Assembly: GCA_900318685.1 (NCBI GenBank)
Contig: ONLL01000012.1
Coordinates: forward strand, 23,433-87,432
Direction: 5' to 3'
DNA length: 64,000 nucleotides
Source of the DNA: an uncultured Prevotellaceae bacterium
Lineage (GTDB): Bacteria > Bacteroidota > Bacteroidia > Bacteroidales > Bacteroidaceae
Shown one piece after another: positions 22,183 through 64,000 of the stretch; the first letter of the stretch is position 1, and each line of letters starts with the position of its first letter. Below the pieces are notes generated by a model. That model saw nothing but the letters and a program-made list of their open reading frames with translations. It had not been told where the DNA came from and made no database searches. The translations under genes were made by a program, and so were the position numbers.

Positions 22183-22236
22183 AATCTCAAATCTCAATCC
22201 TCAAATCTCAAATCTCAAATCTCAACTCTCAAATCT
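22183..22236 (-). repeat. AATCTCAA-type short tandem repeat between cobT and cobS
   Basis: About seven units of the 7-8-base motif CTCAAAT/AATCTCAA fill the whole cobT-cobS gap. The same motif occurs in frame inside the gene at 39809-41491. Confidence 0.85.
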
Positions 22237-25428: not shown

Positions 25429-25604
25429 CTCGCTCGTTGCGGACGGTGCGCTCGCTCGTTACGGACGGTGCACTCGTAGGTTACGGACGGTGCACCCGTA
25501 GGTTACGGACGGTGCACCCGTAGGTTACGGACGGCGCACCCGTAGGTTACGGACGGCGCACCCGTAGGTTACGGACGGTGGACATGCTCGTTACGGACGG
25601 CGGA
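25429..25604 (+). repeat. 22-bp tandem repeat, eight units
   Basis: Eight head-to-tail 22-bp units sharing the core GTTACGGACGG; units 4-7 are nearly identical, the outer ones diverged. It begins 6 bases after the luxS stop and its last unit runs into the left inverted repeat at 25603. No spacers between units, so not a CRISPR array. Confidence 0.92.
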
Positions 25605-25710
25605 CACCCTAACACCCCACCTGATCTTCTGAAGTGCCTTTGCAGAAAGGATATTTGAAAGGTGGGGTGTTGGCCTGACATCCTACCAACACCCCACCAA
25701 CACCCTACCT
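25603..25710 (+). repeat. Left 108-bp inverted repeat of the VapE-like gene unit
   Basis: Pairs with 27144-27251 in inverted orientation: 99 of 108 positions match with no gaps. The outer 20 and inner 34 positions are identical. It contains four copies of CCAACACCCCACC or close variants (three +, one -). The ends 10 bases before the stop of the enclosed gene. Confidence 0.93.
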
Positions 25711-39808: not shown

Positions 39809-41491
39809 TTATCTTGAAGCCCGCGACTGAATGAGCTGGTTGTACTTCTCGTACTCCGTCTGGTAGGTGCGGAGGGCATCGAGGTAGCGCTGCAGCTGCT
39901 CGGCATTGCGCTGTGCATCGGCATTACCCTTGGCAGCGGCACGACGGAAGTAGTCGAGAGCCTGCTCACGCTGTCCGGTCTGGAAGAGGGTGACGCCGAG
40001 GGCGTTCCATGAACGCTCGTCCGCGCGTACATTATTTAATATAGGCAGGGCCTCCTCCCAGTGCTGCTGCTGCATCAGGCGCACGGCACGGTTGATAGCG
40101 TCGGCATTGGCATCGGGCACGCGGTCGAAGTAGATGCGTAGGTAACCGGAGTTACGCTGGTCGGGCAGGAGCTCGTTCTTGATGTAGTCGTAGGTCTTGC
40201 CTCCGTTCAGACGGCGTATCTTCTGCTCGCGGCGGTTCAGGTCCTGCTCGGTGTCCATGATGGTGAGAACCTCCTTGAGAGTTGAGATTTGAGGTTTGAG
40301 ATTTGAGGTTTGGGCGTTGTCGCCTTCAGCGACGACGTCGTTAATCTGGTCGCGGAGCTCAGCCCATGCCTCGCCGCCGCCGTTGAGCTCGAAGAGCTGG
40401 TCGGTGGTGCCGGGCACTCGGTCCTTGATATAGTCGCGCAGAGCCTGTGCACGTCCGTTGCCGAGGTCCTCGTTGTGAGGAACGGTACCCTCGATACTGG
40501 CCAGACCGATGATCTGGATGAGGCGGACGTTAGACATCGAGTCGGCCATGATCTGGCGGGTGATGTCGACGATGCGGTCGAGGATGGGGGCGTTGTCGCG
40601 GAAGTCGTAGAGCAGGGTGGTCTTGTCGAGGGGGAAGTGCACCCAGAGCATACCCTTCTCTTTACGCAGCACGCGCGTGCGATCGTAGGGACGGTAGTTG
40701 GCATACTCCTCGAGGACGGGGTTCTTCGAGGCCAGGATATCGCTGACGGTGGCCGGCGGCAGGATGCCGAAGGCGAGGCCGGGGATGACAGGAGGCGTGG
40801 GCTCGACAGGACGCTCGAGCTGCACTTGATGGACGGTCTTCGGGTTGAGCACGATATTGAGCGCGAGCTTCGGCACGAGGAATGGTCCGTCGTACTCGCC
40901 GATTTTCTTGCCGCACTTGCCGCAGTTGTACTTGTCGCCCCAGGCATAGCCCACGTCGATGCCTGCCTCTGCCTCGAGGCGGAACAGGCGGCTCAGACGC
41001 CATGAGCGTCCGTAGCTGGCACCGATGGCGACGAGGTCACCTTCCTTGCGAGCATGACGTACTGACGGATAAAGACCGAAGGGGAAGTGGACGTTGGACA
41101 CATTGTAATGACTGTACATCATGTTGATGCCCCAGAACCACGACTTGTCGGCATAGACGGAGTCGCTCCAGTGGCGCAGCTCGGGCATGATGAGGAAGTG
41201 ACGCCACTTCTTCTCCTTCATGTCGTCGGTGGGCCAGGGACGGTAGCCGGCGGTGAAGCCGATGGTCCATACGCTGTCGAGCCGGTAGTCGAAGCCGATG
41301 TTGGGTGTGAGCGCTGCGTCGTAGAGCAGGTTGTTGCGCACGGCCCATGGCTTGACTTTGGAGTAGGTGACTGTGTCGTAGCGGACACTATTCTGTTGGC
41401 CGTAAGCCACAAGACTTATGGTCAACAGCAAAACAGTTACAAGGTGTCTCGCGACAGTTCTTGTACCAGGAAGAGCGTTCTTTCTAATCAC
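39809..41491 (-). CDS. DUF3575 barrel / OmpA-like / TPR protein of the fimbrial locus
   Basis: 560 residues with a signal peptide (cut near VAYGQQN). DUF3575 domain about 40-240 ('WAVRNNLLYDAALTPNIG', 'YNCGKCGKKIGEY'), usually an outer-membrane barrel. Then an OmpA-like domain ('WVHFPLDKTTLLYDFRDN', 'IQIIGLASIEGT', 'NGRAQALRDYI') and a C-terminal TPR-like segment ('RSWNALGVTLFQTGQREQALDYF'). DUF3575 genes open many Bacteroidales fimbrial operons. A repeat at 40275-40312 encodes the extra 'TSNLKPQISTLK' inside the OmpA part. Confidence 0.82.
   Translation of the reverse strand: MIRKNALPGTRTVARHLVTVLLLTISLVAYGQQNSVRYDTVTYSKVKPWAVRNNLLYDAALTPNIGFDYRLDSVWTIGFTAGYRPWPTDDMKEKKWRHFLIMPELRHWSDSVYADKSWFWGINMMYSHYNVSNVHFPFGLYPSVRHARKEGDLVAIGASYGRSWRLSRLFRLEAEAGIDVGYAWGDKYNCGKCGKKIGEYDGPFLVPKLALNIVLNPKTVHQVQLERPVEPTPPVIPGLAFGILPPATVSDILASKNPVLEEYANYRPYDRTRVLRKEKGMLWVHFPLDKTTLLYDFRDNAPILDRIVDITRQIMADSMSNVRLIQIIGLASIEGTVPHNEDLGNGRAQALRDYIKDRVPGTTDQLFELNGGGEAWAELRDQINDVVAEGDNAQTSNLKPQISTLKEVLTIMDTEQDLNRREQKIRRLNGGKTYDYIKNELLPDQRNSGYLRIYFDRVPDANADAINRAVRLMQQQHWEEALPILNNVRADERSWNALGVTLFQTGQREQALDYFRRAAAKGNADAQRNAEQLQRYLDALRTYQTEYEKYNQLIQSRASR
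40275..40312 (-). repeat. In-frame TCAAATCTCAA-type micro-repeat
   Basis: Same motif family as the cobT-cobS gap (22183-22236), here read as SNLKPQISTLK within the OmpA-like domain. Confidence 0.82.
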
Positions 41492-50636: not shown

Positions 50637-52169
50637 TTATTTATAGCATGCGAACATATTGTCAACAGCAGCCTTTGGCAACTTCGGCGTGAGCAGGCTC
50701 ACCAACCATACCACTGGGAATCCTCCCAGCATGGCGATGGCTCCACAGTTGATGGGATTGATGGGGTTGCCCAGTATCATGTTCACTACCGTGAGTCCCA
50801 CGCCCCAGATGAAGCATGCCCAGACGCTGATCCGTGTGACGCCGCGCCAGTAGAGTCCCATCATGAAAGGAGCGAGGAAGGCGCCTGCTAATGCTCCCCA
50901 TGAGATGCCCATGAGCTGAGCGATGAATGTCGGCGGATTAAGGGCGATGAGCAACGAGATAGCTATGAAGAACATGATGAGCACGCGCATCACCACTACC
51001 TTACGTCGTTCGATCTTCTCTGCCACGATATCATCGATTGTTCCTTCCTCCACCTCGCCAGGCAGCGACTTCTTGTCGCGATAGATGAGGTCGAGCGTCA
51101 TCGTCGAGCTGCTGGTCAGCACGAGCGATGCCAGGGTCGACATTGATGCTGAGAGCACGAGCAGCACAACGAGTGCGATGAGCACGTCGGGCAGGGTGAC
51201 GAGCATGGCGGGAACGATGCTGTCGAAGGCAATCTTTCCGTTGGCGACGATGGGATCATACAGACGTCCGAAGCCTCCAAGGAAGTAGCAGCCACCAGCC
51301 ACGATAAAGGCGAAGATGGTAGAGATGATGGTGCCTCGCTTGATGGCGCTCTCGTCAGTGATAGAGTAGAACTTACCCACCATCTGCGGCAGTCCCCAGG
51401 TGCCCAGCGAGGTGAGGATGACCACGCCTAGCAGTCCCCAAGGATCAGGTCCGAAGAGCGAGGCAAAGACACCCGGAGCAGCGACGGCAGAACCGTCACC
51501 AGCGCTGTCGGCGGGGATGGAAGCCAGCTTGGTGATGGCTTCTGTGAGTCCTCCCTGTGATGCCAGTACTGCTGCTATGACTGCGAGAATGCCGAAGAGC
51601 ATGATGATGCCCTGTATGAAGTCGTTCATGGCCGTAGCCTTGTAGCCTCCGAGGATGACATAGACGGCGGTGAGGATGGCCATGATGATGACACAATACT
51701 CATAGGGGATGCCGAATCCCATCTCGAACAGAGTGGAGATGCCTTTATAGACGCCAGCCGTATAAGGGATGAGGAATACGAAGGCGATGACCGATGCCGT
51801 CACACGCAGTCCCTGATCCTGGAAACGGGTGCCAAAGAAGTCGGGCATCGTGCGGCTCTCGATGTGCTGTGTCATCAGCTTGGTGCGTCGTCCTAGGATG
51901 ATCCATGCCAATAGCGATCCGATGACGGCATTGCCTATGCCTATCCATGTGGAGCTGAGTCCGTATCTCCATCCGAACTGTCCGGCATAGCCCACGAAGA
52001 CCACTGCCGAGAAATAGCTGGTGCCATAGGCGAAGGCTGTGAGCCAAGGCCCCACGGCGCGTCCGCCGAGCACGAAACCGTCGACACTGCTGGCCTGTTT
52101 ACGGGTGTATACACCTACTCCAATCATCACGGCCAGGAAGATGATGGTCAATAGTACTTTAATAATCAT
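50637..52169 (-). CDS. Sodium:solute symporter (SSS family)
   Basis: 510 residues, about 13 membrane helices. PutP-like N-terminus 'SSVDGFVLGGRAVGPWLTAFAYGTSYFSAVVFVG' (key part FVLGGRAVGPW), Na+-site 'SASMSTLASLVLTSSSTMTLDL'. The substrate class (proline, sugar or carboxylate) cannot be read from sequence alone. Linked to an isomerase-like gene downstream and a porin upstream. Confidence 0.9.
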   Translation of the reverse strand: MIIKVLLTIIFLAVMIGVGVYTRKQASSVDGFVLGGRAVGPWLTAFAYGTSYFSAVVFVGYAGQFGWRYGLSSTWIGIGNAVIGSLLAWIILGRRTKLMTQHIESRTMPDFFGTRFQDQGLRVTASVIAFVFLIPYTAGVYKGISTLFEMGFGIPYEYCVIIMAILTAVYVILGGYKATAMNDFIQGIIMLFGILAVIAAVLASQGGLTEAITKLASIPADSAGDGSAVAAPGVFASLFGPDPWGLLGVVILTSLGTWGLPQMVGKFYSITDESAIKRGTIISTIFAFIVAGGCYFLGGFGRLYDPIVANGKIAFDSIVPAMLVTLPDVLIALVVLLVLSASMSTLASLVLTSSSTMTLDLIYRDKKSLPGEVEEGTIDDIVAEKIERRKVVVMRVLIMFFIAISLLIALNPPTFIAQLMGISWGALAGAFLAPFMMGLYWRGVTRISVWACFIWGVGLTVVNMILGNPINPINCGAIAMLGGFPVVWLVSLLTPKLPKAAVDNMFACYK

Positions 52170-52183
52170 AAGCCCACCCCCAT

Positions 52184-52302
52184 CCCCTCCCCAAGGGAGG
52201 GGCGTTTGATTACATCAGGGGTCTCCATTTTTTAAGTATTAAACAATTATCTCGAAATCATTGCCACCCAGTCCATTTATGAGCCCCTCTCTTTAGGAGG
52301 GG
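52184..52302 (-). repeat. GC-rich palindromic repeats between porin and symporter genes
   Basis: CCCCTCCCCAAGGGAGGGG at 52184-52202 and CCCCTCTCTTTAGGAGGGG at 52284-52302, same family as 43225-43286, both outside coding sequence here. Confidence 0.85.
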
Positions 52303-52314
52303 TTGGGGTGGGTT

Positions 52315-53397
52315 CTAAAATGCCACCTGCACCTGTGCCTGCAGCCAGTTGTAGTCTTTTGAACTGATGTTCTCGCCGCAGAGACAGCGGGTGTACTGCA
52401 ACTGCAGGCGACACTTCTTGAAGAACCAATACTGTACGCCGAGCGTCAGGTTGGTCTGGTCCCAGCCGTCAACAGTGGTGTTGCGGTCGTAGGTCTCGCC
52501 GCTGGCTACGATGTCGAGGGCATCGACCACGGGGATGCATGTTGTGACATATCCGCCACGTGAGCCCACATCGCCATCCTGTCCGCCCAACCATTCAGCA
52601 CGGATGCTGGCAGGACGAGCCTCCTTGTATTTGGCAGGAGAGTAGGCCTGAGTCTTATACTCGATACCTGCGCTATAGCGGTTTCGCTTGTAGTTGTCGC
52701 CCACGTTGATGGCAGGGTTCCAGGCAGCCTTGCCCACGGCGCAGCCTGTGCCTAGATAGCCGGAGCCCACGAGCCGCAGCCCGTCGACGGGCTTCACCTC
52801 CAGCTTGGCGATGAAGTCCTTCTGGTTGTTCTGGTCCTTGCGGTTGATGCCCTGTCCGCTCATCAGAGCCAGTTCATAGTGTACCTTATTATTCAGTATA
52901 TCGCCATAGGCCATCAGACCCATGTCGCGGCCATAGTTCACGCCGTTCAGCGGGTCGGGACCTTCGCCTGCCAGGTAGAGCACGGCCTGCGAATAGACGT
53001 CGATGAGCTCGAGCATAGTAGGCGAGAGCGGGTTCTCCATCGAGTAGGAGTGCTTGAACTGTCCCAGACGGACGCTCAGAGCCTTGTCGTTGCTGATGCG
53101 GAAGTCGGTGTAGTACTCTTGCACCACGCTTGAGAAGTCGTGCATGAACATGAACGACCAGCGGTCGGTGATGCGGGCTTTCGCCCAGAGTAAGGTGCGC
53201 TTGAGGTTGTACGAATTAGTTTTTGTGCCGTTCGGGTCTTGATAGCTCCAGCCCCCCTGGGCGTAGCCGTTGAAGGTGATGCGGCTGGTGAAGTCCTTCA
53301 TCCAGTCGGGTTCGTTACTTTGCCCCATCGCGGCAACGCTGCTCAGCACTGCCAGCGCCACTGCCAGTGTTCGAAATTTGCAAGTCTTTTGTTTCAT
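52315..53397 (-). CDS. Outer-membrane porin (OprO/OprP-like)
   Basis: 360 residues from MKQKTCKFRTLAVAL; signal peptide cut near AAMGQSN. Strand pattern 'ITFNGYAQGGWSYQ', 'LLWAKARITDRWSFMFMHDF', 'VRLGQFKHSYSMENPLSP' matches phosphate-selective porin O/P family members, ending in Phe (VQVAF) as outer-membrane barrels do. It is upstream of the symporter and isomerase genes in the same direction and may be the outer-membrane entry of that uptake route. Confidence 0.8.
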   Translation of the reverse strand: MKQKTCKFRTLAVALAVLSSVAAMGQSNEPDWMKDFTSRITFNGYAQGGWSYQDPNGTKTNSYNLKRTLLWAKARITDRWSFMFMHDFSSVVQEYYTDFRISNDKALSVRLGQFKHSYSMENPLSPTMLELIDVYSQAVLYLAGEGPDPLNGVNYGRDMGLMAYGDILNNKVHYELALMSGQGINRKDQNNQKDFIAKLEVKPVDGLRLVGSGYLGTGCAVGKAAWNPAINVGDNYKRNRYSAGIEYKTQAYSPAKYKEARPASIRAEWLGGQDGDVGSRGGYVTTCIPVVDALDIVASGETYDRNTTVDGWDQTNLTLGVQYWFFKKCRLQLQYTRCLCGENISSKDYNWLQAQVQVAF

Positions 53398-53436
53398 TTT
53401 GTCATTGTTTTGAATGGAAAATTGTTCTTGCGGCGG

Positions 53437-53467
53437 CAAAGGTACTAATAAATGAGCAAAATGCAAA
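53437..53467 (-). promoter_or_regulatory. Promoter of the porin gene
   Basis: Leftward TTTG at 53467-53464, 19 bp, TACCTTTG at 53444-53437. Confidence 0.7.
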
Positions 53468-53641
53468 GAAAAACGGGACTTTTCTTACCGCTTTGGCTGA
53501 AAAAGGTGATATGAGACAATGCTTTTGCAGGACTCCTGGAAGATGCAGGAATAGCAAAGAAGGCGTTCTTGCTGATGCTACTCACGATGTTTCATCATCA
53601 TAGTGCCATACTTTGGTGTCGAAAGTCTGCGACTTGATAAA

Positions 53642-53726
53642 GTAAAACAACTTGTTTTACCTTCGCTAGAGGCTGACTTTGGTCACCAAAGTAGGCCACT
53701 TTGACAGGTAAAACAAGTTGTTTTAC
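53642..53726. repeat. Three palindromes in the porin-lipoprotein gap
   Basis: GTAAAACAACTTGTTTTAC at 53642-53660 and its centre-swapped copy at 53708-53726 flank ACTTTGGTCACCAAAGT at 53676-53692. The 394-bp gap 53398-53791 holds these and the porin promoter; no gene seen. Confidence 0.85.
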
Positions 53727-53791
53727 TTTTGCCCGTCGGTCACGAACGACTCGCAGATGCTTAGCACGGAGGCATTAGTAGCACAGTGAGC

Positions 53792-55975
53792 TTATTCTTC
53801 GACGTACTTGAACCATAGGGAGATTGTTATGCTGCTGCTTTCATCCATATGATCACCGTTTTGCACGAAGCTATCCTCGCCGTCAATATACTGGCCAAGC
53901 GACCATCGATTGAAATAGCATGTTGAGGGGTGCAAGTCTGCTTCGCCAAGAAACCAGTTGGCACTATAATATATGCTTAACCCCCACGGCTCATTCCAAT
54001 CTGTCTGTGGAAGCTTCTGGCTGGTGGCAAAAGCCATGTCTTGGGTCTGTTTCAGCAGAAAATAAGTATCTGCCCACTGTCCATAGAAATAGTAGCCGAA
54101 AGGACCGCTCCAGTTGTTGGTGTTTCTCGTCCAAGACAAATTGGTCAGCGATGCTTTGTTTTGCAGCATGAGATTAACATCGTCAATGTCGAATTCGCAA
54201 TGAGTAACATCAGTGTATTTCTCTTCCTTAAATTCATAGTTCAAGTCGAAGTGCAGTCCTTTGCCCTTGGGAGTCATTGTGACAATATTGTCGCCTTCCT
54301 CAAAATGCAATTCTCCCATGCTGGTAGCCCAGTCAACTTGACTGACAAAGGAGATGTCCATGGTAACCATGCCTCCCACAAATTCATAGCCGCTCGTCTT
54401 CAGGGCGTCTATATCTTCTTCGAGTTTCTTTTTCAGGTAGCCTTCTTTAACCAACCATTCGTAGAACTCCTTTAGGTTTCTGCCTTTTTGGTTCTTGTCG
54501 TACAGTTCAATATATTTAAGGACGATTCTTGCTAGTTCATCATTTATGTATTTCTTCTCATCTCCCTCGTTCTGAAACGGGAGGAGGTCGATACGCACTT
54601 CCTTCCGGAATTTTTCCGTCAGAATATATAGGAGCCAGAGCCTCGCCTCGTAGTCACAATCATCAAAGTAATTATCATGATCCTCAAGCAGGCCTTTTTT
54701 TCTCCAAGCTCTTATCATATCGGCCATTTCTTCCTTTTTCTCGTCAATCGCTTTCTGCTTTTTGGCACGCCTTTCAAACAAATCTTTTATCTCATCCAGC
54801 TCCATGCCATATGCGTATACGGGGGAATTCAATTTATATTTTTGAACAATAGAGCCCCAGTCGACTTGTCCTCCGTGTTCCATGTACTGTTGTGCAAATT
54901 CGTTGTACATATTCTTGATTCTATCGTCATTATAGAACTTTATCAGCTTCCTGATGACTGCAGCTTCTGCCTCCACAAGCTTCACATAGGGACAAATACT
55001 TCTGGCATAGTCCTCCATCTTGCCTGTTGCAAATTTTTTTGCATAAGTCAATGCCATGTCATAGGAACTTGTGGCCTCGCCAAGATTGCTGGCTATCTTT
55101 TCCACGTTCTCCTTTGTCATGTATTTCTCAAGACATTCCACTACTTTCTTGTTGTCGGGATTTTTCTTCAGTTTGCCAATCAGAATGGCCAATGCTTTGG
55201 TTTGCATTTCCTCTGTCACTTTTTTACTGATGTCGTTTGCCGCTTTATCACCCAACGTACCTTCTTCGTATGCCTCAACATACTCCATGGTTCCCTTGAC
55301 GATATCATTGCTTTCTATGACCTGCTTTAAAACATCGTCCAGCAGGTCGTCCTCGTTACCATCCAACACATTATTGACGGCATCCTCCAATTCCCTCTTC
55401 AGTTCTTTGGCTCTGTCTTTTCGCGAATCAGCCACATAGTTGTCGATGGCATATCCCTCAATAAACAATTGCTCCAATTTCTCCTTGCTCCTTTCTGCGG
55501 CTCCTATGGAGAAATGATGGGTTTTGAATTGTACATAACCTTTCTGCAAGGCTGCATAATCGGGAAAGAGGTACTCCGTTCCTTCATCGCCGATGAGCAC
55601 GCCCACCAGTTCACCGTACTGCTCCTTGGGGAAGTCATCGGGTATCTTGAAGCTGACCGTAGCATAATCGTCGAGCACCACATGGGTGTTGCCATCCTGG
55701 GTCACATTGACAGGTGTGCCGACGAAGTTATGCCCTTGTGCTTTGAGCTTGTTTACTTCCGCATCGGACAGCGCCTCATATTTCACGCCGGTTACTCCCT
55801 TGGGGAATGATATGGTTACACCGCTGGGCAATTCTGTCTTGTCGTTTTCATTGCCATTGACCTCAGGGACTTCGTCGATTTCGTTTTCCTTATTGTCTTC
55901 GCTACATGAGACCCAAGCAAGGCTGAGGGCAGCCATCAAGGCAAAAAGCCAAATAGTTTTCTTTCTCTTTGTCAT
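53792..55975 (-). CDS. Large secreted lipoprotein, module 1
   Basis: 727 residues from MTKRKKTIWLFALMA; lipobox WVSCS, acidic/Asn linker. A beta domain (about 35-145, 'SGVTISFPKGVTGVKYEALS', 'YATVSFKIPDDFPKEQYGEL') is followed by about 350 residues of charged helices and a C-terminal beta domain (from about 540). The latter seems to share a pattern with the C-terminus of 60176-62689 (a strand, then 'TNLSWTR' here and 'TNLTWKR' there). Function unknown. Transcribed from its own promoter just after the TM-AraC regulator gene. Confidence 0.7.
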   Translation of the reverse strand: MTKRKKTIWLFALMAALSLAWVSCSEDNKENEIDEVPEVNGNENDKTELPSGVTISFPKGVTGVKYEALSDAEVNKLKAQGHNFVGTPVNVTQDGNTHVVLDDYATVSFKIPDDFPKEQYGELVGVLIGDEGTEYLFPDYAALQKGYVQFKTHHFSIGAAERSKEKLEQLFIEGYAIDNYVADSRKDRAKELKRELEDAVNNVLDGNEDDLLDDVLKQVIESNDIVKGTMEYVEAYEEGTLGDKAANDISKKVTEEMQTKALAILIGKLKKNPDNKKVVECLEKYMTKENVEKIASNLGEATSSYDMALTYAKKFATGKMEDYARSICPYVKLVEAEAAVIRKLIKFYNDDRIKNMYNEFAQQYMEHGGQVDWGSIVQKYKLNSPVYAYGMELDEIKDLFERRAKKQKAIDEKKEEMADMIRAWRKKGLLEDHDNYFDDCDYEARLWLLYILTEKFRKEVRIDLLPFQNEGDEKKYINDELARIVLKYIELYDKNQKGRNLKEFYEWLVKEGYLKKKLEEDIDALKTSGYEFVGGMVTMDISFVSQVDWATSMGELHFEEGDNIVTMTPKGKGLHFDLNYEFKEEKYTDVTHCEFDIDDVNLMLQNKASLTNLSWTRNTNNWSGPFGYYFYGQWADTYFLLKQTQDMAFATSQKLPQTDWNEPWGLSIYYSANWFLGEADLHPSTCYFNRWSLGQYIDGEDSFVQNGDHMDESSSITISLWFKYVEE

Positions 55976-56006
55976 AATAAGATTGGTTTTGATGAATATT
56001 TTTGTG

Positions 56007-56014
56007 CAAAGATA
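56007..56014 (-). promoter_or_regulatory. -7 element of the module 1 lipoprotein gene
   Basis: TATCTTTG leftward, 31 bases before the ATG. No TTG at 20 bp; that position is taken by the repeat at 56034-56044, suggesting an activator-dependent promoter. Confidence 0.6.
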
Positions 56015-56033
56015 CAGCAAAACATCCAAAAAG

Positions 56034-56065
56034 GACTTGCAAATCGTACTTTTCGACTTGCAAAT
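56034..56065 (-). promoter_or_regulatory. Candidate AraC-type operator: direct repeat, 21-bp period
   Basis: GACTTGCAAAT at 56034-56044 and 56055-56065, exactly two helical turns apart, between the regulator stop and the lipoprotein promoter. Confidence 0.65.
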
Positions 56066-56074
56066 GATGATTCG

Positions 56075-57775
56075 TCAGTCGTTTTTGGCCTTCCAGTCGC
56101 TGGGAGTCATGCCTGTGATGGCCTTGAACGCACGGAAGAAGGAGGATTCGGTGGTGAAGCCCGACTGCATCCATGCCTCTGCTACCTTCATGTCAGGGTG
56201 TTGACGCATCAGACGCTTGGCATGCTCCACGCGGTATTTGCCTATGAACTGTGAGAAGGAGCAGCCCAGCTGGCTGTTGATGCAGGCTGAGATGATGTTG
56301 CGGTTCGTTCCAAGACGATTGGCCAGGTCATTCAGTTTCAGATGGCTGTCAAGATAGGGCTGCTCTTGCTCCATCAGCTGACAGATGCTGCGCATGAGTT
56401 CTTCGCCGTCATTCGTTGACTCTATGGCTTCTGGAGCATCGGCTATGACAGTCTCGCTTGCGGTCATCCGCTTCTTCCGCATCATAACAAGTGCTGCCGC
56501 CAGGGCTGCCAATACTGCTATGAGCACTATCCATGGCCAGGCTGCCGCTTCCTCCTTTTGCTGGTCGCGCTGGCCGACAGGCAAAAGATACACCGTAGCC
56601 AAAGGCGAGAAGTTGTCGTTGTCCAGCTGTCCGCCGTTTGATTTGTTGTAGTTATAACCACCCATCATCATCAGGTCGCCATCGTCAGTAAGCACAATCA
56701 TAGGAAATCCCGCATCGGGTAGGGGATCTGTATAGTAAAGCGTCAGTGGAGCGGGGGTCTTGTCATATTCCACGCACAGCACGTAGGATCGCCCTTTCAG
56801 GTCGCTCCCATGGATATATCCCCTATGGGCTTTCCTGTCGGCTATGAGAGGAGAATAATATAATATGGAGTCGGAGGGTGATACACCTGTCAGCGGTACG
56901 GGGCAAGTGGTAGGCAGAATTGTGAAGGTGGTGTCGCGCACTAGCATAAATGCCATCTCGCGTCCCAGATAATTCCAATCGGGAGGATTGCTGTCGCTCC
57001 AATCCTGCACGTTGATGAGATAGGTGTAGTCGCCTTTCGTCTCGTCGCCGATGAAGCTGAGGTCGTTGCAGAAAGGTGCTTCGAAGGTCAGCGGCTGCCA
57101 CTTTTTTAATAAAGGTACGCGCAAGGGATCACCCTTCAGCCGCTCAACGCTGTCACTGCAAAGAGGCTCGTGGTACGGACTTTCATTCCCCAGGATGAGG
57201 ACATTGCCGTCAGAGGTGCGGAGCAGATAGGGCACGGCATGCGCCTTGCTGACATCCTTGACGGGAGAGAAAGTCCTGTCGCCGTCGAACATCTCTATGC
57301 CATCATCGCCATACCAGTTGCCTGTGACGACCACCCGTCCGCTGTCCAGCTCTGCTCCAGAGGCAAATGTGCGCTTCATGCTCAGAATGCTGAACCCCCG
57401 GAAAGTATGTGTCTCAGGGTCGTATTCCTCCACAGGAAAGCTTCGTCCTACTCCCATCGGCTCTTCATGTCCTCCTCCCAAGAGCACTTTCCCTGAACGG
57501 AGCACCACGCAGAGGCCGTTGTCGTGAGGATAGGCCATCTGCATCAGATGCCACTCGCCGTCCTTGAAGTACTCAGCGGTCTGCGTGGGAATGAAGTTCG
57601 TGGTATGTCCGCCAAATATCGTCGCCTCTCCATTCAGGCAGACGGCAGAATGACTGTTGCGGGGGATGTTCAGGTCGGACAGCCTCTCCGCTTCGATTCT
57701 GACGAGAGGGCAATTATCCGCCAGAATGGTCAGCGGCAACAGTAGAAGGAATAGTATTTGGCAGAACCTATTCAT
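56075..57775 (-). CDS. Membrane one-component regulator: kelch propeller - TM - AraC, module 1
   Basis: 566 residues. Signal sequence 1-19; periplasmic kelch-type beta-propeller about 30-405 ('IPRNSHSAVCLNGEATIFGG', 'GKVLLGGGHEE', 'DGDLMMMGGYNYN'); one TM helix at 413-432; basic stop-transfer RKKR; cytoplasmic AraC domain about 475-566 ('LANRLGTNRNIISACI', 'SGFTTESSFFRAFKAITGMTP'). There is no kinase or receiver, so it differs from the hybrid two-component systems of Bacteroides. Paralogue of the gene at 62845. Probable activator of the downstream lipoprotein gene. Confidence 0.88.
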   Translation of the reverse strand: MNRFCQILFLLLLPLTILADNCPLVRIEAERLSDLNIPRNSHSAVCLNGEATIFGGHTTNFIPTQTAEYFKDGEWHLMQMAYPHDNGLCVVLRSGKVLLGGGHEEPMGVGRSFPVEEYDPETHTFRGFSILSMKRTFASGAELDSGRVVVTGNWYGDDGIEMFDGDRTFSPVKDVSKAHAVPYLLRTSDGNVLILGNESPYHEPLCSDSVERLKGDPLRVPLLKKWQPLTFEAPFCNDLSFIGDETKGDYTYLINVQDWSDSNPPDWNYLGREMAFMLVRDTTFTILPTTCPVPLTGVSPSDSILYYSPLIADRKAHRGYIHGSDLKGRSYVLCVEYDKTPAPLTLYYTDPLPDAGFPMIVLTDDGDLMMMGGYNYNKSNGGQLDNDNFSPLATVYLLPVGQRDQQKEEAAAWPWIVLIAVLAALAAALVMMRKKRMTASETVIADAPEAIESTNDGEELMRSICQLMEQEQPYLDSHLKLNDLANRLGTNRNIISACINSQLGCSFSQFIGKYRVEHAKRLMRQHPDMKVAEAWMQSGFTTESSFFRAFKAITGMTPSDWKAKND

Positions 57776-57778
57776 TTC

Positions 57779-58435
57779 TTAGCTTTTCCGGGCGTTGGGG
57801 CAGTGCTGGCAGAGGAAGTCATAGACGAAGTCGAAATCCTCGTCGGCCACGAAAACCATATTGCGGCTGAAGCGTTCTCTCACTTTGATCAGGTGCCGCC
57901 GGCGGCAGGGTATGATACGCCGCACGCTGCTGAAGCTGCAGGACAGCGATGTGCGGTTGGCAACCAGTATGCCCATCCCCGCCATGCCAAGCTTGCCGCC
58001 TGCAGCTCCTGCCAGCGCCGTCAGTTTACCGATGGCACGGGCCTTGCCCTCGGTGCCGGGCAGTTGCTTGTGCACCACCTCCTTCTCGTCCATGATGAAG
58101 AGGATGCTGTATTTCCAGCCATAGTACCAGGAAACGAAGAAATAGGCCACACAGCCCAGCACCAGGAAAACTCCCATGAGCACCAAGAAGCCACGTGTGA
58201 TGTCCCACAATTCGGATAGGCGAAAGTGGCTCTCGCAGCCTCCTAACAATAATACGAACAACCACACTATGCCGAAGCTGATGCCCAGCACCCAGAACAC
58301 TTCAAACAGGACGCTTGGGTTCTTAAGCATAGGCATGTCATACACCCAGCGGTACTTGCCGTCGGGGCAGAGCACGGGGCGCGTGGAGCTGATGTTGTTG
58401 TAATTCTGACTTGTTTTCTTTCGTTGTTTAGCCAT
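57779..58435 (-). CDS. Two-TM membrane protein with PH-like domain
   Basis: 218 residues from MAKQRKKTSQ (an ATG two codons upstream is possible). Two membrane helices (about 48-68 and 86-108), then 'YSILFIMDEKEVVHKQL' and 'VRRIIPCRRRHLIKVRE', a beta-rich part reminiscent of bacterial PH domains. Function unknown. Only 3 bases separate it from the regulator gene, so the two are transcribed together from the promoter at 58457-58488. Confidence 0.7.
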   Translation of the reverse strand: MAKQRKKTSQNYNNISSTRPVLCPDGKYRWVYDMPMLKNPSVLFEVFWVLGISFGIVWLFVLLLGGCESHFRLSELWDITRGFLVLMGVFLVLGCVAYFFVSWYYGWKYSILFIMDEKEVVHKQLPGTEGKARAIGKLTALAGAAGGKLGMAGMGILVANRTSLSCSFSSVRRIIPCRRRHLIKVRERFSRNMVFVADEDFDFVYDFLCQHCPNARKS

Positions 58436-58456
58436 GATCATTTGGTAATAGTGGTG

Positions 58457-58488
58457 CAAAGGTACAAAAAAGCGGGCGAACCGCCAAA
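58457..58488 (-). promoter_or_regulatory. Promoter of the TM protein-regulator operon
   Basis: Leftward TTTG at 58488-58485, 20 bp, TACCTTTG at 58464-58457. The upstream element sits in the loop of the terminator at 58472-58500. Confidence 0.75.
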
Positions 58489-58505
58489 CGATTCGCCCGC
58501 TTTTT
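58472..58505 (-). terminator. Terminator of the 58575-60071 isomerase-like gene
   Basis: GCGGGCGAA pairs with TTCGCCCGC around 11 bases, with T-tracts on both sides, so it can act in both directions. Confidence 0.85.
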
Positions 58506-58574
58506 ATGAAATCAGGAACTTGGTTCTCAGATTCTTCTTACCTCTATGGGGCATCAGCGTCCGCAGGAAAACGG

Positions 58575-60071
58575 CTATGCGAACGGATTCTCCGTAGGAT
58601 AGTAGTCGCCCTTCGGGAAGTTGTAGTCAATCTCGTCGACGGGAATACCCATGTATTTGAGCACCTCCCACAGGTACTTACCTGCATGCTCGAACATCAC
58701 GGCGGCGTGGTGCGGATAGTGCTTCTCGATGAGGACATGACGGTAGAAGCGGCTCATGTTCTTGATGCCGAAAGTACCGATGCTGCCGAAGGAACGGGTG
58801 GCAACGGGCAGAATCTCGCCCTGTGCGATGTAAGCACGCAGCTTTGTGTCGGCGGTGGACTGCAGGCGGTAGACTGTGGCCTTGCCGGGCTTCAGGTCAC
58901 CCTCAAGCGTGCCGTTGGTCACCTCTACAGGCAGGGCGCGGGCCATGATGCGCTGGAAGCACATCTGGCAGTTGCATATCTTGCTGGAAGCAGTGTTGCC
59001 ACAGTGGAAGCCCATGAAGATTTCCTTCTCGGTGTACTCGTCGCACTCAAACTTCTTGCCCTTGATGCTCTCTTCGAACATGTCGCGGGGCACGCTGTTG
59101 TTGATGTCGAGCAGGGTCACGGCATCCTGAGTGATGCAAGTACCGATGAATTCAGACAGAGCACCATAGATGTCAACCTCGCAAGCCACGGGGATGCCAC
59201 GACCAGTGAGACGGCTGTTCACGTAGCAGGGCACGAAGCCGAACATCGTCTGGAAGGCGGGCCAGCACTTATTGGCCATAGCCACAAACTGGCGGCTACC
59301 CTTGTGAGCTTCAATCCAGTCGGTCAGTGTCAGCTCATACTGGGCGAGCTTCGGTAGCACAGAAGGAATCTTGTTGCCAGTGCCCAGCTCCTGAACCATA
59401 TCTTTCACCACCTCGTCGATGCGCGGGTCGCCCTGGTGCTTCTGGAAAGCCTCGAGCAGGTCGAGCTCGGAGTTCTCCTCAATCTCCACATCGAGGTCAT
59501 AGAGAGCACGGATAGGAGCGTTGCAGGCGAGGAAGTTGTTGGGACGGGGGCCGAAGCTGATAATCTTCAGGTTCTGCAGGCCGACGATGGCACGTGCTAT
59601 GGGCACGAACTCATGGATCATCTCAGCGCACTGGTCAGCATCGCCAACGGGCTCTTCAGGTATGTAAGCACGGGTCTTGCGCAGCGACAGAGCCTGGCTG
59701 GCGTTCAGCATGCCGCAGTAGGCATCGCCTCGGCCGTCGATAAGGTCGTTCTGGGTCTCCTCGGCAGCGGCGCAGAACATAGTAGGTCCCTGGAACCAGT
59801 CGGCAATCATGGTCTCGGAGATTTCTGGTCCGAAGTTGCCGAGATAGACGCACAGGGCATTGCAGCCGGCCTTCTTCACATCCTCCAGTGCCTGCTGGGC
59901 GTGGATCTCGCTCTCAACGATGCAGATGGGACACTCGTAGATGTCGGCAGCGCCGAACTTCTCTACATACTTTGCAATCACGGCCTTGCGGCGGTTGACA
60001 GCCAATGACTCGGGGAAACAGTCGCGGCTTACTGCCACGATACCAATCTTAATTACAGGTACATTTTTCAT
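58575..60071 (-). CDS. L-fucose/L-arabinose isomerase-family protein
   Basis: 498 residues. N-terminal 'PVIKIGIVAVSRDCFPESLA', middle 'IDGRGDAYCGMLNASQALSLRK'-type segment and 'IISFGPRPNNFLACNAP'. The C-terminal half has the metal-ligand region 'VACEVDIYGALSEFIG' (Glu and Asp) and 'GFHCGNT'. An unusual cysteine cluster CNCQMCFQ follows. Conserved metal-site residues suggest an active aldose-ketose isomerase; substrate unknown. Own promoter and terminator; not linked to transport genes. Confidence 0.82.
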   Translation of the reverse strand: MKNVPVIKIGIVAVSRDCFPESLAVNRRKAVIAKYVEKFGAADIYECPICIVESEIHAQQALEDVKKAGCNALCVYLGNFGPEISETMIADWFQGPTMFCAAAEETQNDLIDGRGDAYCGMLNASQALSLRKTRAYIPEEPVGDADQCAEMIHEFVPIARAIVGLQNLKIISFGPRPNNFLACNAPIRALYDLDVEIEENSELDLLEAFQKHQGDPRIDEVVKDMVQELGTGNKIPSVLPKLAQYELTLTDWIEAHKGSRQFVAMANKCWPAFQTMFGFVPCYVNSRLTGRGIPVACEVDIYGALSEFIGTCITQDAVTLLDINNSVPRDMFEESIKGKKFECDEYTEKEIFMGFHCGNTASSKICNCQMCFQRIMARALPVEVTNGTLEGDLKPGKATVYRLQSTADTKLRAYIAQGEILPVATRSFGSIGTFGIKNMSRFYRHVLIEKHYPHHAAVMFEHAGKYLWEVLKYMGIPVDEIDYNFPKGDYYPTENPFA

Positions 60072-60113
60072 ACTGATATAGTACTTTTTGTCGTTATAGG
60101 TTTATTCAGCTTG

Positions 60114-60145
60114 CAAATATACACCTTTTTCCCCATTCTTGCAAA
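60114..60145 (-). promoter_or_regulatory. Promoter of the 58575-60071 isomerase-like gene
   Basis: Leftward TTTG at 60145-60142, 20 bp, TATATTTG at 60121-60114. Confidence 0.75.
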
Positions 60146-60175
60146 TATTATCTTTGTTTTTTTTCTTTTTTCTTT

Positions 60176-62689
60176 CTACTTAACAGACTTAAAATCGATT
60201 TCTAGGTATGCAAAGTTCTCGCCATCATTGAGGTATTCAAAAAGAGATTGATGATATCCTCCCCACCCGTCGTTTGAGTATTGCTCACAGTTGTACCCTG
60301 ATATACCCATACCGTCGGCAACTTTTCCATCAAACACCAATTCACTCAATGTCGTGAGGTCAGAAGCGTTTTTTAAACGCACTTTGCTGATTGGAATATT
60401 CGTGTAAGATACACTGATGTTGTAATTGTCATATCCAAATACAGATTTGGGGAGATACACCCTTTTCCATGTAAGGTTTGTAACACGGGCTTCCTTACAG
60501 TCACCCTTTATGTCTGTGACATCGAAAGAAATGATATGATGGTCACCAAGATTTTCATAATCAATATCCGCATGCAATGAAGAACCTGAGAAACTGCAAG
60601 AAATGCATTCTGCATTAAACCTACTTTCAGTAAAGCCTCCTGCAGCATCGGACGTTAATTGACCTGTTATTTCAGTCGTACCCCAGTAATGATGATAGAC
60701 TGTAACGTTAGTCTTTATTCTCGTTTTGAAGGCTATTGAACTGATCTCAACTTGAGAAATCTGTTGACTACCAGCTTTCTGTGTCACTTGGATGGCTAGC
60801 AGTTCGATGTCTTCTGCCGTAGGCTCCTTGGTATTTGTTGCAAAGGCATAGATGGTGCCGGAGCGCTCTTTACCGGTTGTGTTGGCAGAGGCTTTCACGG
60901 TGAACGTATCATCTGAGCCATTCATAATGGTAACCCAGTCTCCGCAGTCATCAACAATGCCACCACAGTATAAATAGGTCTTCTTGTTGACCTTTACCTT
61001 CTGCTCGCCACCATCGGCCTCAAAGGTCAGCGAGGTTTTGTCGGCCTCAATCTTTGGACGTTCTTCCTGCTGTTTGTTTCCCTCCTGAATGACAGTAACG
61101 GTTGTACTTTCGTCAGCTTCCTTGCCCTTTATCGACACTTGGGCCAGGAATGAGTAAGAGCGCGGTTGTTCGCTGTCGTTGGGCTTCACGGTGATGGTCA
61201 GAATGTTCTTATTTCGGCTCACACTGATCCAATCGGGTAGAGGTTTGGTATAGCGGTAGCGGTAGAAAGTGCAATTACTGATTATTTCTACTTTTTCGAC
61301 ACCGCCTTTTGCACCTATTAATACCTTTTCAGGTGATAGCTTGATAGTGGCTTTTGATTCTTGTGGGTGCGATTCTACTACCACTTTACCAGGCTTCTGT
61401 TTGCCCACTTTTTGGGTCACGCGCTCACCTTTGTTGGTAATTGTGGTGATGATCTTGTCGCCTGGGGTGGTTGCTACACGGGTGTTGCCGTCCTTACCTG
61501 GGAAGCCAATAGTGGTGCTGCCTGTTTTCGCATCCTCAATAACAGTGACAATTACGCCCTGCGGTGTTGTCTTCTGAATCTCATAGAGGTTAATACCCAG
61601 CCCCTCTGCAATCTCCTCATCGGCCTGTTCCAAGGCGTGGTTGGTGACATAGCTATTGATTTCGCCTGCCAGTTTCTCCAGTTCATCGGACGAGGGCGCT
61701 CCTTCGAAAAGATCTCCAGTCTTTTCGCTTACATACTTAGTGCCAAGTGAGGCGGCAAAGCGCTTCAGGTCGGCAGTGGTAGCCTTGCCTTCCTTGATTT
61801 TTTTTGCCAGTTTGATGGTCTCTTCGGAAATATCATTGATGTCCACCATCTTACTGACATAGCCTCCCGTTACCTCGTCAATTACCGATACATAGAAAGA
61901 ACCCGCATTGATGGCCACCGGCTTGATCGCCTCATGATGTTCCTTCCATCGTGGGTGTCCGTTTTTGTCGTATAGCTCATCCCATGTGTCAAAATATTTG
62001 CCCAATGCTTCTCCATCTGCAACACTTTCGAGCCATGTTTCATGAATGAACGAACTTTGTTCCATGTAGTCGCCTGCTGCGAAATCGATATACCAGTTTC
62101 TCGGGTCTACATGTCCATGCTTGCAGGAAGCTGGTAATGCGTCGAAAAGCTGCTGTAGTCTTTTCTCGTCGCGCGTAGCCTTCATCGTATTCAGAATTGT
62201 CAGCATGCGGTAGTGCGTGTCCTTCTGCACGTTGGTAATATCGTTGCACCATTGGAAGAACTCCAGTCCTAAACGGGTAACGGTGGGTTTAGTCAGTATG
62301 CCGTCCTCTTCCAGTCGGTTTAGTGCTTCCTGATAGTGGTCTGCATTTTGCAGCAAGTCGGCCACATAACTGAAGAACTTAGCACCTTTGGTGTGTTCGC
62401 CTGCGCCACCAAGAAGCTCACCCTGCCAATTGTCACTCATCATTTTGGTGTACTCCAAGCGCATGCCTTCCATCTTCAGTGACACCTCTATAAGGGCGTC
62501 GATGTCGCTCATGACGAAGTCCTTGGCCGTCACGGTAGAAGAACTTGGCGCTTCGCTGAATGTATCTTCCGTAAGATTAGAGATATCTCCACCGCCACTT
62601 TCTTCCTCGTCATCTGTCTCTCCGCAGGCTCCCATTATCAGAGCCAGTGCTGGCACAAATAGCCAGCCGAAAATGAATTTCTTTGTCAT
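60176..62689 (-). CDS. Large secreted lipoprotein with two BACON-type domains, module 2
   Basis: 837 residues, lipobox MGACGE, acidic/Gly linker. About 50-400 is helical ('WYIDFAAGDYMEQSSF', 'VTNHALEQADEEIAEGLGI'). Two BACON/Ig-like domains follow: about 450-540 ('IKLSPEKVLIGAKGGVEKV' ... 'VTVIQEG') and 555-650 ('EADKTSLTFEADGGEQKV' ... 'VTQKAG'). A C-terminal beta domain ends the protein and resembles that of 53792-55975. BACON domains often bind glycans or mucin, inferred only. Downstream of the second TM-AraC regulator. Confidence 0.78.
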   Translation of the reverse strand: MTKKFIFGWLFVPALALIMGACGETDDEEESGGGDISNLTEDTFSEAPSSSTVTAKDFVMSDIDALIEVSLKMEGMRLEYTKMMSDNWQGELLGGAGEHTKGAKFFSYVADLLQNADHYQEALNRLEEDGILTKPTVTRLGLEFFQWCNDITNVQKDTHYRMLTILNTMKATRDEKRLQQLFDALPASCKHGHVDPRNWYIDFAAGDYMEQSSFIHETWLESVADGEALGKYFDTWDELYDKNGHPRWKEHHEAIKPVAINAGSFYVSVIDEVTGGYVSKMVDINDISEETIKLAKKIKEGKATTADLKRFAASLGTKYVSEKTGDLFEGAPSSDELEKLAGEINSYVTNHALEQADEEIAEGLGINLYEIQKTTPQGVIVTVIEDAKTGSTTIGFPGKDGNTRVATTPGDKIITTITNKGERVTQKVGKQKPGKVVVESHPQESKATIKLSPEKVLIGAKGGVEKVEIISNCTFYRYRYTKPLPDWISVSRNKNILTITVKPNDSEQPRSYSFLAQVSIKGKEADESTTVTVIQEGNKQQEERPKIEADKTSLTFEADGGEQKVKVNKKTYLYCGGIVDDCGDWVTIMNGSDDTFTVKASANTTGKERSGTIYAFATNTKEPTAEDIELLAIQVTQKAGSQQISQVEISSIAFKTRIKTNVTVYHHYWGTTEITGQLTSDAAGGFTESRFNAECISCSFSGSSLHADIDYENLGDHHIISFDVTDIKGDCKEARVTNLTWKRVYLPKSVFGYDNYNISVSYTNIPISKVRLKNASDLTTLSELVFDGKVADGMGISGYNCEQYSNDGWGGYHQSLFEYLNDGENFAYLEIDFKSVK

Positions 62690-62716
62690 AGCTTATAATT
62701 TTAAATTATATGAGCA

Positions 62717-62747
62717 CAAAGGTAGACTTTTTCCCAAAATCAGCCAA
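62717..62747 (-). promoter_or_regulatory. Promoter of the module 2 lipoprotein gene
   Basis: Leftward TTG at 62747-62745, 20 bp, TACCTTTG at 62724-62717; 28 bases before the ATG. Confidence 0.7.
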
Positions 62748-62763
62748 GCTTAGTGCTAAAAAA

Positions 62764-62811
62764 CGACTCCCATTCCGCGAAATGGGAGTCGACGGTGCGG
62801 AATGGGAGTCG
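62764..62811 (-). promoter_or_regulatory. Candidate AraC-type operator: direct repeats, 20-bp period
   Basis: Leftward CGACTCCCATTCCGC at 62811-62797 and CGACTCCCATTTCGC at 62791-62777, followed by an inverted copy at 62776-62764. It lies between the regulator stop and the lipoprotein promoter, as in module 1, but with another sequence. Confidence 0.65.
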
Positions 62812-62824
62812 CTTTTTGTGGTGT

Positions 62825-62845
62825 GACAGGCGGCGGGTGCCTGTC
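62825..62845 (-). terminator. Hairpin at the end of the module 2 regulator gene
   Basis: GACAGGC and GCCTGTC around 7 bases, directly at the stop codon; no T-tract. Confidence 0.35.
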
Positions 62846-64000
62846 TAATTCTGCTCGGTATACTGTGCCAGCCACTCTCTGGGCGAGAGACCTGTTACGG
62901 CCTTGAAGGTGCGGAAGAAAGTGGTCTCGCTGGTGAAGCCCGCCTGGCTGCTGACGAAGGCAATCTTCATGTCGGGCTGTTCGCGGAGCAGCTGCTGTGC
63001 GTGGCGTACGCGATATTCACCAGTCAGCTGGGCGAAGGTGGTGCCCCGCTGCTGGGCGAGGACATTGGTAACGGTGCTGACGCTGATGTTCAGGCTCGTT
63101 GCCACATCCGTGAGGCGCAGGCGGCTCTGCAGATAGTGCTGGTCTTGCTCCAAGAACTGACAGATGCGCTGCATCAGTTCCTCATCGCTTGGGGTGGCAG
63201 GTGCCTGACTGTCGGGCAGACTCTCTGCAATGGGCTTGTGGCGCTTTCTATTAACAATAATGTACGCGAGAGCGGAGAGAAGTGCTACTGCCACGATGCC
63301 CCACAGCCATGCATACGAACGGCTCTCTGCTAAAATGGGTGCCTCGTTATTGACATGCACCAGCCAGACAGTGGCAAGAGGGTCAAAGTTGTCGTGTCTT
63401 TGGTTGACACCACCGGTAATGAGCAGGTTGCCGTCTGGAGTTAATACAGGAATGGTGCATCCCATATCGGGCATAGGATCTGTATAGAAGAGCTTCAGTT
63501 TTGCATGCCACGCCTTCTCTTCTGTAGCGCTGCTGCTCTTTGGCATCTGGGCATAGTCGATACTGAGGAAGTAGTAGCGGTCACGTATGTCGCGGCCAAC
63601 GACGTAGGCACGTTGTGCCTGACGGTCAACAATAGCAGGCGAGTCGTAGAGGATACTGTCGCCAAAGGGAGCCATCGGTATCACGCAATCGGTGGGCAGC
63701 AGCGTGAACACAGTGTCGCGCACCAGAGAGATGGCCAGCTGTCTGTCTGAGTTCACGACGGGCAACAGGTAGGAGTAGTCCCCCTTTTGCTCATCGCCAA
63801 TAAAGCTGACGTCGCTGCTGAAAGAACGTTCAAAAGGCATGGGCTGCCACTCATCCAGCAGCGGAACACTGAACGGAGTGCCCTTCATGCGGTCGACAGT
63901 TGAGCTGCCCACAGGCTGGTAGCGGGTGTCGTGAGCCCCCAAGATGATGACATCGCCATCAGATGTGCGGAAGATATAGGGGCACATGCGTTCCACGGCC
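62845..64000 (-). CDS. Membrane one-component regulator: kelch propeller - TM - AraC, module 2 (5' end beyond window)
   Basis: 385 residues are visible; by alignment with 56075-57775 about 200 N-terminal residues lie outside. The propeller part shares 'RTSDGDVIILG', 'VPLLDEWQPMPFE' and 'DVSFIGDEQKGDYSYLL' with the paralogue. The TM helix is 'WLWGIVAVALLSALAYIIV' and the cytoplasmic AraC domain contains 'VATSLNISVSTVTNVLAQQ' and 'AGFTSETTFFRTFKAVTGLSP'. The DNA-contacting helices differ from the paralogue, in line with the different operator sequence downstream. Confidence 0.87.
   Translation of the reverse strand, partial: AVERMCPYIFRTSDGDVIILGAHDTRYQPVGSSTVDRMKGTPFSVPLLDEWQPMPFERSFSSDVSFIGDEQKGDYSYLLPVVNSDRQLAISLVRDTVFTLLPTDCVIPMAPFGDSILYDSPAIVDRQAQRAYVVGRDIRDRYYFLSIDYAQMPKSSSATEEKAWHAKLKLFYTDPMPDMGCTIPVLTPDGNLLITGGVNQRHDNFDPLATVWLVHVNNEAPILAESRSYAWLWGIVAVALLSALAYIIVNRKRHKPIAESLPDSQAPATPSDEELMQRICQFLEQDQHYLQSRLRLTDVATSLNISVSTVTNVLAQQRGTTFAQLTGEYRVRHAQQLLREQPDMKIAFVSSQAGFTSETTFFRTFKAVTGLSPREWLAQYTEQN

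Follow-up and report, generated by a model that had tools for sequence, protein, structure and literature searches.

Near the end of a 64,000-nucleotide stretch of DNA (hereafter the window: contig ONLL01000012.1, positions 23,433 to 87,432, of the assembly GCA_900318685.1 of an uncultured Prevotellaceae bacterium), two paralogous regulators, KR1 and KR2, each combine a kelch-type propeller, a single transmembrane (TM) helix and an AraC domain in one chain and each precede a lipoprotein gene of the same orientation, which confirms what a preliminary description of this DNA had stated. We consider it likely that KR proteins are one-component transmembrane regulators that act through a dedicated operator to switch a modular and exchangeable secreted cargo, and from its surroundings the regulator would very probably control the secreted or surface protein that adjoins it. 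The protein architecture, the positive-inside topology, the neighbour association, the operator geometry, the co-variation of operator and regulator, and the exchange of cargo were all read from the sequence.

Results

Architecture and topology of the regulators

KR1 is 566 amino acids (aa) long. The reading frame of KR2 is broken at the contig end, since the window reaches the end of contig C41 in a 3.96-Mb draft genome, and the N-terminal part of KR2 terminates contig C48; the joined KR2 has 579 aa and the same architecture as KR1. The two contigs are probably adjacent, because 99 identical bases, an exact overlap, are common to both ends. A third paralogue, KR3, is located elsewhere in the genome (contig C60, L023:7325-8968). 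Pfam identified an AraC-type double helix-turn-helix (HTH) in both window regulators (HTH_18, E 3.8e-19 in KR1 and 4.4e-17 in KR2), together with Kelch_6 and Kelch_2 matches below the cut-offs in the propeller of KR1 and no Kelch match in the part of KR2 within the window. A profile built from 73 relatives matched solved kelch propellers, namely Keap1 at about 1e-7 and designed kelch proteins to about 1e-12, with matches covering only profile positions of about 44–190, the N-terminal half of the propeller, and its C-terminus matched AraC domains, including one from a hybrid two-component protein. As previously proposed, the system appears to be kinase-free, as neither KR1 nor the window's portion of KR2 has a Pfam match to a histidine kinase or a receiver domain. 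A DNA-binding domain and a TM helix are thus found in one chain, which is what defines a transmembrane one-component regulator, a known kind of protein.

Relatives were collected by a pattern-based scan of 84,980 species genomes, which gave 179 relatives, and the best 80 of the 179 were used, resulting in 79 loci titled Prevotella, Prevotellaceae, Bacteroidaceae, Bacteroidales or Bacteroidetes. At least 19 of the locus titles mention a ruminant host or a gut compartment, and many others carry RUG names, which we take to mean the rumen. The 79 loci contain 92 propeller genes, including 85 full regulators (propeller, AraC domain and more than 450 aa); the remaining seven consist of two cut by a contig end, one short fragment with an AraC domain, and four without an AraC domain. 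A hydrophobic stretch after residue 150 was present in 88/88 regulators at a threshold of 1.7, and the stricter threshold of 1.9 missed the helix in 2/85. Lysine and arginine residues averaged 4.1 in the 12 residues after the helix versus 0.8 in the 12 residues before it, and because of this excess the positive-inside rule predicts a periplasmic propeller and a cytoplasmic AraC domain.

Association with secreted neighbours

A protein called as secreted was encoded by the next gene for 53/63 non-redundant regulators, compared with 178/634 other genes of these loci; both counts required a called signal peptide, the same strand and a start no more than 450 bp away, and the loci are not fully independent. 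These 63 are the regulators with a scorable non-regulator next gene among 67 that are non-redundant at 90% identity, and a looser rule gave 54/64. The signal peptides were called by a home-made rule tuned on the window genes, which has errors in both directions, such as the evident signal missed in the cargo of L129 and the lipobox called in the TM protein at 57779-58441. The consistent neighbour that the preliminary description expected among homologues was therefore observed. As secreted proteins are common in these genomes, where the background of 178/634 is high, chance might be invoked for the pairing; however, it is contradicted by the comparison with 53/63 and by the operator described below, and we regard it as hardly credible.

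The earlier proposal of a duplicated module holds for the regulator and fails for the lipoproteins. Only the regulator counts as duplicated, because the two lipoproteins are non-homologous (their best BLASTP match, E 0.004, lies within the signal region) and KR1 and KR2 belong to different supported clades. Lipoprotein 1 was taken to start at the ATG at 55975, because a TTG at 56029 is separated from that ATG by the predicted -7 element. After cleavage it begins with C-S-E-D, which agrees with the surface-export motif CS(D/E)2 given for Bacteroides lipoproteins in the available text of PMC6222051, and the C-G-E-T-D-D of lipoprotein 2 is merely similar to this motif. The N-terminus of lipoprotein 1 resembled Mfa1-type fimbrial subunits in NCBIfam far below the cut-off (20.4 bits vs 130), and this candidate was not used.

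Beyond the window, the cargo is more varied than the lipoproteins of the preliminary description, whose assignment is correct at both window loci and does not extend to the others. Pfam was run on 58 cargos, comprising 54 from other loci (the truncated L056 cargo being excluded and the L129 cargo included), the two window lipoproteins, and two KR3-linked genes, and it identified LRR_5 (BspA-like leucine-rich repeats, LRR) in 16, Por_Secre_tail of the type IX secretion system (T9SS) in 12, BACON in 5, Peptidase_C10 in 2, and Kelch_6 in 2. No Sus family was present among the Pfam matches listed for these cargos (25/32 families). Por_Secre_tail was absent from both window lipoproteins, and it gave 13 matches in the host genome, 12 of them above the cut-off. 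Single-linkage grouping of the cargos produced 14 clusters, the largest being a chain of 32 members, and strict grouping produced 25 families among 57 labelled cargos.

Operator and promoter in the regulator-cargo gap

The gaps between regulator and cargo share a recurrent design that consists of half-sites resembling TTTGNNAGTC repeated at 21 bp, a -7 element, and an inverted copy (Table 1 for KR1 and KR2; the KR3 half-site is TTTGAGAGT). Gaps were admitted only if a called secreted gene starts 20–420 bp downstream, giving 70 gaps, 58 of them non-redundant. A half-site pair with a score of at least 14 and a spacing of 20–22 was found in 46/58 non-redundant gaps (40 forward, 6 reverse), versus 0.38 gaps expected from 50 dinucleotide shuffles, and when spacings of 16–26 were allowed, the best triple had a spacing of 21 in 49/70 gaps. 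In the 46 forward (F-type) gaps with a -7-like element 10–32 bp downstream, the spacing was 21 in 41, 20 in 4, and 22 in 1, and the half-site pair lay 19 or 20 bp from the -7 element in 44/46. An inverted copy at a start distance of 15–17 upstream was present in 43/46 F-type gaps, an arm of equal quality occurring in 19% of shuffles. The reverse (R-type) orientation was assigned to 13 gaps, including those of KR2 and KR3, and the pair ends 56–57 bp before the -7 element in 7/13. In the whole window, the F pattern with its -7 element matches once, in the KR1 gap, and the R pattern once, in the KR2 gap.

Table 1. Features of the two regulator-cargo units in the window (R type, reverse orientation).
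Feature	Positions	Strand
KR1 regulator: signal peptide, kelch-type propeller, single TM helix (residues 414-432), AraC domain	56075..57775	-
Inverted arm A' of the KR1 operator; overlaps the final sense codon and stop of KR1	56070..56080	-
KR1 operator, distal direct half-site TTTGCAAGTC	56055..56064	-
KR1 operator, promoter-proximal direct half-site TTTGCAAGTC, 21 bp from the distal one	56034..56043	-
Predicted -7 element TATCTTTG of the KR1 cargo gene	56007..56014	-
KR1 cargo: 727-aa lipoprotein without Pfam match; lipid-site Cys followed by SED	53792..55975	-
KR2 regulator, C-terminal part, cut by the contig end; N-terminal part at L024:6782-7464 (contig C48)	62845..64000	-
KR2 operator, R type: GACTCCCATT twice at 20 bp	62781..62810	-
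KR2 operator, inverted partner AATGGGAGTC; terminator-like, with a T run after the hairpin	62765..62774	-
Predicted -7 element TACCTTTG of the KR2 cargo gene	62717..62724	-
KR2 cargo: 837-aa lipoprotein with BACON domain(s)	60176..62689	-

The proximal forward half-site would sit about where a -33 element is expected, because TAnnTTTG, the -7 consensus of Bacteroides sigma-ABfr, is paired with TTTG near -33 according to the available text of PMC7366714. This position could also suit a repressor, as a regulator bound there could block the promoter. A forward direct repeat next to a promoter, however, is the arrangement of AraC-type class II activators. In addition, the portion of PMC3878776 at hand links hybrid two-component system (HTCS) regulators, which share the repeat period of the KR operator, to induced loci. 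Activation appears to be favoured over repression because of the site position and this HTCS analogy only, and we judge repression of the cargo by KR to be unlikely.

An operator search with one mismatch and no promoter element was rejected as uninformative, with 80 matches versus 107 in the reversed control. Many of these matches are heptamer repeats of the TTGAGAG type, and the nine rows with zero mismatches comprise eight repeats and the KR1 gap. Dispersed heptamer arrays (TTGAGAG/TTGAGAT type) occur genome-wide and are found in the window at 22182-22240, mainly intergenic, and at 40275-40312, inside an open reading frame (ORF). The window also contains a 22-bp tandem repeat array (GTTACGGACGGCGCACACGTAG type) at 25429-25607, beside the gene at 25720-26970.

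Operator-regulator matching and further targets

The two unspecified letters (NN) of the half-site provided a measure of co-variation. The NN letters of the two half-site copies agree at 71/110 positions, versus 35.8 after shuffling (maximum 54 in 5000 shuffles), and in 33 forward-type loci with distinct AraC domains, among 130 columns tested, they are best linked to columns 544 (0/1000 shuffles as good) and 492 (2/1000), both assigned to recognition helices by the position of the HTH motif. A C at the second N accompanies Arg544 in 6/7 loci versus 3/26 others (Fisher p 0.0005), and in 8/8 versus 6/32 when R-type sites are included. Within the genome of the window, KR1, KR2 and KR3 have three different half-sites. 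The link between regulator and secreted product that the preliminary description had postulated thus gains a regulatory basis in the co-varying operator.

Within the host's family, the propeller query, with a propeller match alone as criterion (E 1e-20), matched 33/399 genomes. Across 395 genomes sampled from the whole class, the propeller matched at 1e-10 only in the genome that holds the window and in two more, and the genes of these two look by eye like secreted proteins without a TM helix or AraC domain. Plasmids gave 173 matching records, none spanning 80% of KR1; the best 10 of the 173 match by the AraC domain or a partial propeller.

The promoter-anchored F pattern matched 31 times in 19/33 propeller-positive genomes and 14 times in 13/366 negative ones, and the reversed F pattern gave 22 matches over all 399 genomes. 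The R pattern matched 11 times in 9/33 propeller-positive genomes and in none of 20 negative ones; this pattern alone is weak evidence, because its reversed control gave 7 matches. The 32 F-operator matches in the 53-genome set were distributed among gaps (19), positions just before a regulator (2), and elsewhere (11, one of them in a propeller-negative genome), and 7/11 of the last precede a called secreted gene. The 79 loci contained 49 operators in gaps and 5 before regulator genes (four of them in close relatives), and their reversed sequences contained zero operator matches. Distal operators in these loci had a called secreted ORF within 320 bp in 8/8, with preference given to a signal-bearing ORF if more than one was open. 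Several operator-bearing targets occur at some loci, and the genome of the window has another KR3-type operator, with TGAGAGT recurring at 21 bp, ahead of a further secreted gene, L023:13339.

Besides an operator, the gap element might be an RNA device, that is, a terminator or attenuator of the KR transcript, with KR acting elsewhere. The inverted arms fold strongly at KR2 (-18.8 kcal/mol, z -5.1) and L083 (-14.0, z -6.7), and a T run follows the hairpin in 28/46 F-type gaps, a count that also weighs against our own reading, as the element could be a plain terminator. However, a hairpin needs neither a third, direct copy at 21 bp nor a fixed distance to the -7 element, the KR1 hairpin is weak (-6.8, z -1.5) with no T run directly after it, the half-site letters track recognition-helix columns, operators also occur before distant genes and before KR itself, and Rfam gave no match at gathering scores in 52000-64000. 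We therefore regard the RNA device as very unlikely; as part of the operator, the inverted arm may also terminate the regulator transcript.

Exchange of cargo beside a retained regulator

The cargo varies beside closely related regulators. KR2 is 85–87% identical to the regulators of L071, whose cargo is a 163-aa secreted protein, and L068, whose cargo is a 679-aa lipoprotein of the KR1 cargo family. About 3 kb further on, L071 has a stretch resembling the KR2-type gap (88% identity with L068 over 52 bases and 80% with the window over 105) before a lipoprotein gene that shares 94% identity with its L068 counterpart. From a point just short of where the KR2 cargo ends, the L071 chromosome again matches the window, at 90%. 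The gene at 58575-60071 between the two window units, encoding an L-fucose isomerase-like protein (Fucose_iso_C), lies inside this rejoined stretch.

Among regulator pairs at least 80% identical, which are not independent of one another, the cargo was alignable over 60% of the shorter protein in 15/35 and not in 20/35, with partial cargo kinship (L107/L118) counted as non-aligned. Regulators of the non-alignable pairs are 82–99% identical, and the cargo was non-alignable in 5/13 pairs at 95% identity or above. The boundaries were located in 18/21 pairs, without the two KR2 pairs and after removal of the L119, L120 and L123 rows, which have tandem regulators and no cargo swap. Homology ends 70–125 bases after the regulator stop in 14 of these 18 swaps; in two it ends at -6, in one at 184 and in one at 214. 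In 14/18, it ends before the called cargo start. In L077, L093 and L107, it ends within a few bases after the -7 element. The upstream gene was unchanged in 11/16 testable swapped pairs and in 8/12 cargo-keeping pairs. L119, L120 and L123 themselves carry two different regulators in tandem ahead of a single gene for a small secreted protein, and both gaps contain operator-like repeats.

The preliminary description had also considered that the propeller senses the lipoprotein itself. Feedback of this kind on secretion or assembly would suit the adjacency of regulator and cargo; in addition, relatives of the sensor propeller occur in cargos of L124, L125 and L129 and in a neighbour in L073, so that a shared partner or ligand is possible. 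However, regulators up to 99% identical have non-alignable cargos, and the N-terminal half of the propeller is its most strongly conserved portion (57/155 columns at 90% or above) despite the differing cargos. Sensing of its own cargo by KR appears clearly unlikely on this evidence, and that idea is not upheld. A common ligand or partner would be favoured over sensing of each cargo, because the N-terminal half of the propeller is conserved while the cargo varies. The propeller relatives just mentioned are located at L124:2150-5704, L125:11706-15500, L129:6150-7478 and, as a divergent operator-bearing neighbour, L073:8008-9741, and they are 24–31% identical among the matches listed.

Neighbouring genes

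The gene at 57779-58441 encodes a 220-aa protein with two predicted TM helices and no Pfam match; it lies on the KR1 strand, its end 3 bases ahead of the KR1 start, and may be co-transcribed with KR1. Upstream of KR2, on the side of contig C48, a gene resembles a GH97 glycosidase by eye.

Discussion

Taken together, the data suggest the following mechanism. The periplasmic kelch propeller would sense an extracytoplasmic signal, probably family-wide, and the single helix would relay it directly to the cytoplasmic AraC domain. We infer from the operator geometry and its co-variation that this domain binds the operator, namely two half-sites 21 bp apart at the promoter and an inverted copy, and the bound regulator would then switch on the gene of the secreted or surface protein. 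Operator-cargo units would be gained, lost and exchanged beside a more stable regulator, and co-evolved half-site specificity would separate the paralogues. A further step of this model is a sense-and-display platform, in which kelch-AraC regulators would be fixed docking points, operator recombination would swap and multiply unrelated secreted and surface proteins, as interchangeable operator-promoter-cargo cassettes, under one signal, and diverging half-site codes would insulate several such platforms within a single genome; we find the case for this platform evenly balanced.

Several observations weigh against the likely reading of KR as a regulator with a dedicated operator and exchangeable cargo. 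The sensor role of the propeller is one that we infer. A secreted next gene is absent from 10/63 regulators, and among the ten exceptions under the looser rule, L073 and L097 each carry a divergently oriented secreted gene that has an operator itself, and L129 has the cargo whose evident signal peptide was missed, which leaves seven unexplained, including L107_10 with 419 bases of contig remaining. Propeller-less AraC genes in the same loci likewise have a called secreted gene next in 3/4, a number too small for a control. A half-site pair scoring 14 was lacking in 12/58 gaps, and the R-type pair lies 56–57 bp before the -7 element in only 7/13. The Arg544 link amounts to three independent pairs on the tree and is non-significant after tree correction, and because the tree has just these three pairs, the association of Arg544 with C is suggestive only. 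Moreover, 19/31 matches of the F pattern are in gaps, from which the pattern was derived, so that a fair comparison omits them and leaves 12 matches in 33 genomes versus 14 in 366. Of the 11 operators away from KR genes, 4 have no called secreted gene downstream. Finally, cargo turnover is not smooth with distance, as the cargo is alignable in 13/21 pairs at 70–80% identity.

A similar operator geometry is that of E. coli AraC at araI1-araI2, where, as for KR, two direct half-sites are spaced at 21 bp and the one nearer the promoter overlaps the -35 region. E. coli AraC is soluble, with a cytoplasmic sugar-binding domain and no membrane step. Transmembrane transcription regulators (TTRs) of the ToxR/CadC-like kind resemble KR in having a DNA-binding domain and a TM helix in one chain without a phosphorelay; however, the DNA-binding domain of ToxR and CadC is N-terminal, whereas KR has its sensor at the N-terminus and its AraC domain at the C-terminus. 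TTRs are abundant in Bacteroidia according to the text available of PMC10269533, in whose main text, as far as it was available, the words AraC and kelch are absent.

Bacteroides HTCS proteins share with KR a periplasmic sensor, a membrane passage, a C-terminal AraC domain and mostly local targets. In the accessible portion of PMC3878776, their operators are direct repeats with a period of 20–21 bp, the AraC-type HTCS motifs of B. thetaiotaomicron having repeat periods of 16+5, 12+9 and 14+6 bp. Unlike HTCS, KR lacks a histidine kinase and receiver, has a kelch propeller instead of a COG3292 sensor, has as its neighbouring target a secreted or surface protein of varying family, and has an exchangeable cargo. 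Polymorphic toxin systems diversify via recombination with stand-alone coding cassettes, as stated in the part of PMC3482391 at hand; in KR loci, by contrast, whole cargo genes differ instead of C-terminal domains, and toxicity is not suggested. Among openly licensed papers, judged by title and the start of the abstract, no description of the kelch-AraC family, its operator or its cargo exchange was found, and by title the openly licensed literature held no on-point paper on cassette exchange in rumen Prevotella.

If this reading is correct, the KR proteins would constitute a family of membrane switches that work without a kinase and have a readable DNA code, and this would explain how surface proteins such as LRR proteins, proteases and lipoproteins can be swapped without regulatory rewiring. 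It makes testable how a membrane-tied AraC domain works, and it would offer naturally insulated sensor-operator pairs for synthetic circuits in Bacteroidales.

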